Origin: a virus
IMG/VR virus record: IMGVR_UViG_3300043436_000378
Span: 1 to 21,522 of that record
DNA: 21,522 nucleotides
Strand: one strand, 5' to 3'
Below are positions 4,985 to 6,261 of this stretch, piece by piece. The stretch's first letter is position 1. Each line of letters begins with the position of its first letter. The notes beneath the pieces are model-generated. The model was not told the origin of the DNA, ran no database searches, and worked only from the letters and a program-made list of their open reading frames with translations. The translations under genes were made by a program, and so were the position numbers.

Positions 4985-5000
4985 TATATTAGATTTTGTT

Positions 5001-5008
5001 TATATTTG
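5001..5008 (+). promoter_or_regulatory. Possible -7 promoter element of the inverted cassette
   Basis: TATATTTG matches the Bacteroidota -7 consensus TAnnTTTG exactly and lies 17 bases before the ATG at 5025, leaving a very short leader. The -33 half is weak: the nearest TTTG is at 4971-4974, a spacing of 26 bases instead of about 18-20. The call is therefore tentative. No clear promoter for the diverging minus-strand head genes is visible in the 40-base gap 4985-5024. Confidence 0.4.
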
Positions 5009-5024
5009 TTCAAAAATTATAGTT

Positions 5025-5567
5025 ATGATTGAAGTATTAGGAAGGCAAATAGCCAACAAAATGAATGAAATTACGGTTGAAGAATTTGAAAAGATTTCAG
5101 CTATTCACAACAACAAAGAACTCGATAACATCGAAAAGCAAATTAAAGTTTTCGAAGTTGTAGGAATAGAAGAGGACGAATGGGATGACTTTAATTACTT
5201 TGTTGAAAAGACTAAAGAGTTTAACACGGATAATTATGAAGCTAAAGACGCTATCGAAGAAATAGAAATAGACGGATTTACTTATAAAGCCGAAATGAAA
5301 CTATCCGTAAAAGACACAAAGCTAATCGAGAAAATAATTGTTAAAGAAAATAAGCATTCGGTTTCGGATATTATGGCATTGATGTTTAAACGAACGGATT
5401 TAAGCAATACGGAACACTACGATTCAGCGCATTTAAAACACAAATCAAAGTTGTTTAGAACACAAGCCGCTGAAATTGCAATCCCATATCTTAATTATGT
5501 CACAACAACAATCTCAAACCACGCTCAAAAACAAGCTGCCGATAGCGTGGAATCAAATAACGATTGA
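5025..5567 (+). CDS. Tail assembly chaperone-like protein A (inverted cassette)
   Basis: A 180-residue acidic, helical protein encoded against the direction of every other gene here. The N-terminal segment (residues 14-46, 'NEITVEEFEKISAI' then 'KQIKVFEVV') repeats a pattern found in the next protein (19-50, 'NQITIETFIELRSL' then 'YQIDVLCTL'). The second halves also match in layout, a 'YK' strand followed by an 'IMALMFKR'/'IIAILYRR' helix, so the two genes look like diverged copies. Genes between tail tube and tape measure in siphoviruses usually encode tail assembly chaperones that coat the tape measure protein, and this pair sits beside the tape measure/tail-completion block. Function is inferred from place and shape. 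The last 71 bases overlap the next gene in another frame. Confidence 0.65.
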   Translation: MIEVLGRQIANKMNEITVEEFEKISAIHNNKELDNIEKQIKVFEVVGIEEDEWDDFNYFVEKTKEFNTDNYEAKDAIEEIEIDGFTYKAEMKLSVKDTKLIEKIIVKENKHSVSDIMALMFKRTDLSNTEHYDSAHLKHKSKLFRTQAAEIAIPYLNYVTTTISNHAQKQAADSVESNND

Positions 5568-6261
5568 AACATTTATTGAATTACGAAGTCTATCGCAAGA
5601 AGATGGAATGTTCAATTATCAAATTGATGTGCTTTGCACGTTGTTAGATTGCTATCCCGAAGATTTTGATAACATTACATTAGATGAACTTGAAGAACTG
5701 CTATTAGAAGTTAAATTTATACGCGATGAACCGCCTAAAAACTACAAAACGTCTATTGGTAAGTATAAACTAAAGCCATTTAATAAAATTACACTCGGTG
5801 AGTTCATTAGTTTAGAAGCATATTTCTCCGATAACTACATTGAAAAGCTACTTAATATTATTGCTATTCTTTATCGTCGAGTTCGTGTTAATGAATGGGG
5901 TGACGAAATACTGGAATCTTATAATTATCATTCAAATGATAGGTTAGATTGGTTTTTAGACTTTGCAATTACGGACGTTTTCGGATTACTACCCGAATAC
6001 ATTAAATTTCGGGAAGGTATTATAGACCAATACAAAAACTTAATGACCGAATCCTATGAAGACGATTTCGAACTTGACTCTAATATGGATGCCGAAGATT
6101 TAAAAGCGGTTGAAGAGGAAAAGAAACAAAAGAAATGGGCTTGGGAGCAACTTATTTGGATGTTGTGTCAAGAAGACTTAACCAAATTTAATGCCGTTTG
6201 TGAACTTCCGTTAATACTCGTCTTTAACTTTTTAGGAATGAAAAAAGAATTGAATGTTTAA
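5497..6261 (+). CDS. Tail assembly chaperone-like protein B (inverted cassette)
   Basis: A 254-residue protein. The open frame extends to a TTG at 5476, but ATG 5497 (MSQQQSQTTLKNKLPIAW) is the natural start. It overlaps the previous gene by 71 bases, one base ahead in frame (+1). The N-terminal 'WNQITIETFIELRSL' and the following 'YQIDVLCTLLDCYPEDFDNI' are typical of small Bacteroidota phage proteins found near the tape measure gene. The middle holds 'KLLNIIAILYRR', and the end is acidic then Lys/Trp-rich (EEEKKQKKWAWEQLIWML). A tail chaperone role parallel to lambda gpG/gpGT is plausible, though this downstream frame has its own start and the -1 slippage geometry is absent. Its TAA stop shares bases with the stop of the converging gene at 6258. 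Confidence 0.65.
   Translation: MSQQQSQTTLKNKLPIAWNQITIETFIELRSLSQEDGMFNYQIDVLCTLLDCYPEDFDNITLDELEELLLEVKFIRDEPPKNYKTSIGKYKLKPFNKITLGEFISLEAYFSDNYIEKLLNIIAILYRRVRVNEWGDEILESYNYHSNDRLDWFLDFAITDVFGLLPEYIKFREGIIDQYKNLMTESYEDDFELDSNMDAEDLKAVEEEKKQKKWAWEQLIWMLCQEDLTKFNAVCELPLILVFNFLGMKKELNV

Follow-up and report, generated by a model that had tools for sequence, protein, structure and literature searches.

Putative short and long tail assembly chaperones encoded without frameshifting by an inverted pair of overlapping phage genes

Most phages make both forms of the tail assembly chaperone from one gene by means of a ribosomal slip. Lambda gpG/gpGT and other tail assembly chaperones made by -1 frameshifting were reportedly described by Xu, Hendrix and Duda in 2004, and in 2022 Vladimirov, Gautam and Davidson are said to have given genes 26 and 51 as the chaperone genes of T4. 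According to a passage of PMC10885494, which cites Vladimirov et al. 2022, some T4-like phages encode their short and long chaperones in separate genes, and a passage of PMC11659878 has the phages of Microbacterium subcluster EA1, such as Figueroism, using two chaperone genes. The locus described here resembles lambda gpG/gpGT in having a short and a long form with a common N-terminal domain and a further C-terminal domain in the long form, in its place among tail genes, and in the presence of a -1 slip site in a cousin locus. In contrast to gpG/gpGT, its genes A and B carry no frameshift and are two genes with two starts in overlapping frames, inverted against all others. We consider it very likely that A and B encode the short (TAC-N) and long (TAC-NC) tail assembly chaperones of a small phage lineage, probably infecting Bacteroidota, that makes them without frameshifting. 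This identification follows from the content of the two genes, A having only the short domain and B having both domains of its cousins in one frame.

The window, by which we mean the whole 21,522-nucleotide stretch of IMG/VR virus record IMGVR_UViG_3300043436_000378 that was analysed, contains the features listed in Table 1. A and B are its only clear rightward genes, all other clear genes running leftward, and no further open reading frame on the plus strand looked gene-like. The first-pass annotation had described two rightward genes that overlap by 71 bases in different frames, and its coordinates, strand and overlap were all correct. On one side, the divergent protease gene starts 40 bp from A, and at the other end B faces the gene g137. 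B ends convergently on the stop codon of g137, with an overlap at 6258-6261 that recurs in nearly all relatives scored and that leaves no space for a terminator between the opposing transcripts. An alternative start of B at TTG 5476 was rejected in favour of the ATG at 5497 because this ATG is conserved in relatives.

Table 1. Positions of the chaperone-like genes, their domains and the adjoining intergenic region in the window
Feature	Positions	Strand	Description
Gene A	5025-5567	+	180 aa; putative short tail assembly chaperone (TAC-N, lambda gpG-like), from profile match to B and to the short domain of the frameshift family
Gene B	5497-6261	+	254 aa; putative long tail assembly chaperone (TAC-NC, lambda gpGT-like), with short and C-terminal domains in a single frame
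A/B coding overlap	5497-5567	+	71 nt; B in +1 frame of A in every relative
Short-form domain of B	5497-6000	+	residues 1-168; hhalign to short domain of the frameshift family, Prob 97.6, E 4.2e-12
C-terminal (T-like) domain of B	6001-6258	+	residues 169-254; hhalign to -1-frame peptides, Prob 97.3, E 1.8e-11; gap-free junction
Divergent intergenic region, 40 bp	4985-5024	.	between protease gene (-) and A (+); holds candidate A/B promoter
TATATTTG	5001-5008	+	matches TAnnTTTG, the Bacteroidota -7 element

A Foldseek search with the model of B returned uncharacterised viral proteins, including I6R9M9 of Nonlabens phage P12024S (E 4.2e-7, probability 1.00). The P12024S gene that matches I6R9M9, by length and profile rank, is gp38 (JQ823122, 23136-23663, 175 aa). 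The protease, major capsid protein (MCP), tube candidate, portal, DUF6712 protein, TerL and tape measure protein (TMP) of the two phages all match, and P12024S is thus a true cousin of the window phage. In P12024S, gp38 lies directly after TerL and contains an in-phase T9 run (T TTT TTT), overlapped by a -1-frame ORF, part of which is annotated as gp39. Positions 23136-23830 of that genome hold an unannotated signature of -1 programmed frameshifting, and gp38 and gp39 are annotated as separate hypothetical proteins; their PHROGs, phrog_32199 and phrog_38404, are both listed as "unknown function". A scan of IMG/VR collected 63 loci with relatives of gp38 down to about 25% identity. In all 62 assessable relatives, the T run is kept in phase and the -1 frame after it is open. 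The -1 ORF has no ATG ahead of its WxW motif in 37 of the 42 distinct loci where this ORF is complete, so that a slip would be required to make the -1 domain. The cousin gene is single-copy and always codirectional with TerL and the tail genes. Tail chaperone genes usually lie directly upstream of the tape measure gene; gp38 of P12024S does not. Judged from sequence, the cousin locus is of the canonical lambda G/GT -1-frameshift design. At loci L303-L346 (e.g. L318:1987 onward), the zero and -1 frames both stay open for about 85 codons past the slip site. The short form is therefore little shorter there than the long one (248 versus 255 aa), and two frames apparently encode the C-terminal stretch.

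Both products of the cousin gene have counterparts in B, gp38 being homologous to its short domain and the -1-frame gp39 to its C-terminal domain, whereas P12024S differs from the window in that its one, single-copy gene has a slip site and runs in the direction of TerL and the tail genes. In B the two domain matches (Table 1) directly adjoin each other where the cousins have the slip site; a joint alignment has no gap at this junction, which falls between FF and LSFR in the cousins and between EY and IKFR in B, at residue 169 (base 6001). When the window was searched with the cousin profiles, B was the only significant match, and it was likewise the sole significant match to the T-domain profile. 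A showed modest similarity to the cousin short domain (E 2.2e-5), compared with E 0.15 for the T domain. Strong sequence and gene-structure evidence therefore points to A as the short domain alone and to B as the short and frameshift-encoded domains joined in one frame. An N-terminal domain is common to A and B, and a C-terminal domain is extra in B; this second domain had no part in the first-pass account of the locus.

The resemblance between A and B is not visible by BLASTP (E 0.35), and hhalign with shallow profiles did not detect a relation between them. With deep profiles enriched with about 280 loci, hhalign aligned A and B over 119 collinear columns (Prob 80%, E 1.4e-5). Among 6671 distinct ORFs, the best 87 non-A matches to the A profile were all B proteins, and the best 129 non-B matches to the B profile were all A proteins. 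AlphaFold models, of which that of A is weak (pLDDT 72, pTM 0.49; B, pLDDT 81), place their elements in collinear order over residues 1-180 of B, and B has four extra C-terminal helices. Profile comparison and predicted folds thus bear out the earlier suggestion of a diverged duplicate pair, and A and B are confirmed at this level as diverged paralogues. One detail of that suggestion is not supported, namely that HYDSAHLKHKSKLF and ESYNYHSNDRLDWF pair up as an aligned motif; the profile alignment between A and B extends only to around residue 129 of the A profile.

Scans of A and B against Pfam, NCBIfam and PHROGs gave no convincing family, HMMER found no significant match to an annotated chaperone, and searches of the PDB by sequence and by fold returned nothing significant. 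Just below the family matches of the A model, the named proteins in the structural search included several tail assembly chaperones, at E values of only 0.6-1.2, and the B model had a weak structural match to R9VW65 of Flavobacterium phage 6H (E 5e-3). In the absence of a significant match to a named chaperone, the assignment rests on the frameshift gene structure of the cousins, the two-form architecture and the neighbourhood. Next to A and B come g137, whose HK97 gp10-like match falls slightly short of the Pfam cut-off, and g150, and then the TMP gene. The -1 frameshift signature is absent from the window lineage, which does not disqualify A and B as tail assembly chaperones, as frameshifting is usual and not defining for these proteins and T4-like phages are a reported exception (PMC10885494). 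The first-pass annotation had proposed a G/GT role for the pair, made from two starts in an inverted unit, and this proposal is upheld by the cousins with their one-gene -1-frameshift form, of which B would represent both domains and A the short one. The host is presumably a member of the Bacteroidota, as suggested by P12024S and by the -7 motif.

Protein searches of IMG/VR yielded hundreds of relatives of A and B. A survey of related phages found the same inverted two-gene state throughout: in all 186 distinct cassettes, B overlaps A in its +1 frame, on the strand opposite to the neighbouring genes, with an overlap of 17-80 nt by nearest-ATG calling. In every fetched locus with scorable neighbours, the pair is on the opposite strand and is flanked by the protease/MCP genes on one side and by g137/g150/TMP on the other, and in four near-complete relatives (29-37 kb) that are otherwise one-directional, A and B are the sole recognised genes running counter. 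As A or B served as the bait for these loci, they speak only for phages that have the pair. Both genes are under strong purifying selection, with dN/dS values outside the overlap of 0.03-0.08 for A and 0.06-0.085 for B. A scan with a divergent B returned 80 loci, among which there were no same-strand or single-copy intermediates. A tblastn search of INPHARED phages gave no match to A or B, and a genome_contigs search gave one match, in a contig of a metagenome-assembled genome (MAG), so that hosts could not be read from prophages. The contig RFPL01000047.1 (locus L206) belongs to the phage lineage and is filed in a Sphingomonadaceae MAG, probably through mis-binning. At locus L056:1131-2303, A and B form one open frame that lacks the N-terminus of B, which is probably an assembly deletion and could be a natural fusion. 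Loci L085 and L118, which are on the same contig, have g150 alone on the plus strand, perhaps through misassembly or a local inversion.

Upstream of A, the Bacteroidota -7 element TAnnTTTG, which TATATTTG fits, occurs about 22-25 nt before the start in 121 of 121 distinct upstream regions, where shuffling predicts 13. An exact match to TATATTTGTTC occurs just once in the window, and we found no -33 element at the spacing expected from TATATTTG. The region 4985-5024 is very conserved and has CTATATTA about 12 bp before TATATTTGTTCAAA, possibly as overlapping divergent promoters of the head genes and the A/B cassette. That it is conserved does not prove an A/B promoter, because the leftward genes may make use of it too. 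A promoter function of the motif for A and B is likely but unproven, given the missing -33 element and the double use of the region as leader of the divergent genes.

Other readings of the pair were weighed against the tail chaperone assignment. A and B adjoin the protease gene on one side and lie near the capsid genes, as would suit head-side assembly factors such as scaffold or head-completion chaperones, but the cousin genes sit beside TerL and the tail genes g150/g137, away from the protease and MCP, and the two-form -1-frameshift design that they display, to which the fused C-terminal domain of B corresponds, is typical of tail chaperones. A head-side role is accordingly very unlikely. 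It is extremely improbable that A and B are accessory cargo (anti-defence, exclusion or regulatory) inserted into the structural operon on the other strand, even if the opposite strand and a promoter-like motif of their own are typical of such cassettes: they have homology to a single in-operon gene of the cousins, they evolve under strong purifying selection, and they hold the same place in every fetched locus, albeit in loci for which A or B was the bait.

The invariant frame offset of the 186 cassettes could also mean that A and B are joined by a programmed frameshift (+1/-2) into a fusion that acts as the functional long form. We judge this highly improbable, as B has its own conserved ATG in the copies examined, the protein from B is complete without A, having both the short and the C-terminal part, and there is no slip heptamer within the A/B overlap of the window.

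Among the described systems, the proposed chaperone genes 26 and 51 of T4 resemble A and B in being separate genes for a short and a long (fusion) chaperone and in the size of their products, 208 and 249 aa. Membership of A and B in the T4 gp26/gp51 family (Pfam T4_baseplate) was considered and rejected for lack of detectable homology: the Pfam scans of A and B had no match to T4_baseplate, and hhalign with single T4 sequences gave Prob <=0.5% for all pairs of gp26 or gp51 with A, B and the cousins. The A/B case therefore looks independent, and it would apparently be the second case of separate short and long chaperone genes, independent of T4. T4 genes 26 and 51 are on opposite strands from each other, whereas A and B stay together, both opposite to everything else; strand switching around split chaperone genes is thus seen in both lineages. 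At L418:103-1529, the T4 genes 26 and 51 are adjacent and on opposite strands. The earlier claim that no such chaperone organisation had been described holds only in part. Separate short and long genes are reported for some T4-like phages (PMC10885494) and for EA1 phages (PMC11659878), with no inversion reported for EA1. What stands is the inversion: in the open-access subset of the literature that was searched, we found no description of both chaperone genes inverted as an overlapping cassette in a one-directional genome, which does not establish that none exists.

On this reading, cousin phages have one gene, with the long form made by a -1 ribosomal frameshift at the T9 slippery site. The window lineage has the gene twice: copy A retains the short form alone, and in copy B the short and C-terminal domains are continuous in one frame, joined where the cousins have their slip site. 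By analogy with lambda, the tape measure protein may be coated by many short-form and fewer long-form subunits, the tail tube protein may be recruited by the C-terminal domain of B, and both chaperones may be released during polymerisation of the tube. Relative use of the two translation starts, and not slip frequency, would determine the A:B ratio; since the start of B lies inside A and out of frame, ribosomes translating A would pass over it. As to the order of evolutionary events, the split between A, B and the cousin family is three-way and unrooted, so that either the one-gene or the two-gene form may be ancestral. An independent escape from programmed frameshifting is quite possible, although we stop just short of favouring it: a duplicated chaperone gene would have given rise to a short and a long gene, with the ratio controlled by overlapping starts and with an inverted promoter under independent control.

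It is a long-standing question why the frameshift that yields two chaperone forms in a fixed ratio is so widely retained among tailed phages, and the window lineage and its frameshifting cousins provide a natural paired comparison, in which the same two domains occur with and without the slip. A likely function can also be assigned to a protein family listed in databases as unknown, and to the unannotated frameshift of P12024S. That the inversion is conserved suggests a regulation of chaperone dose separate from that of the structural operon. If the reading as an independent escape is true, the timing or dose of the chaperones would have become independent of the operon with all the other genes.
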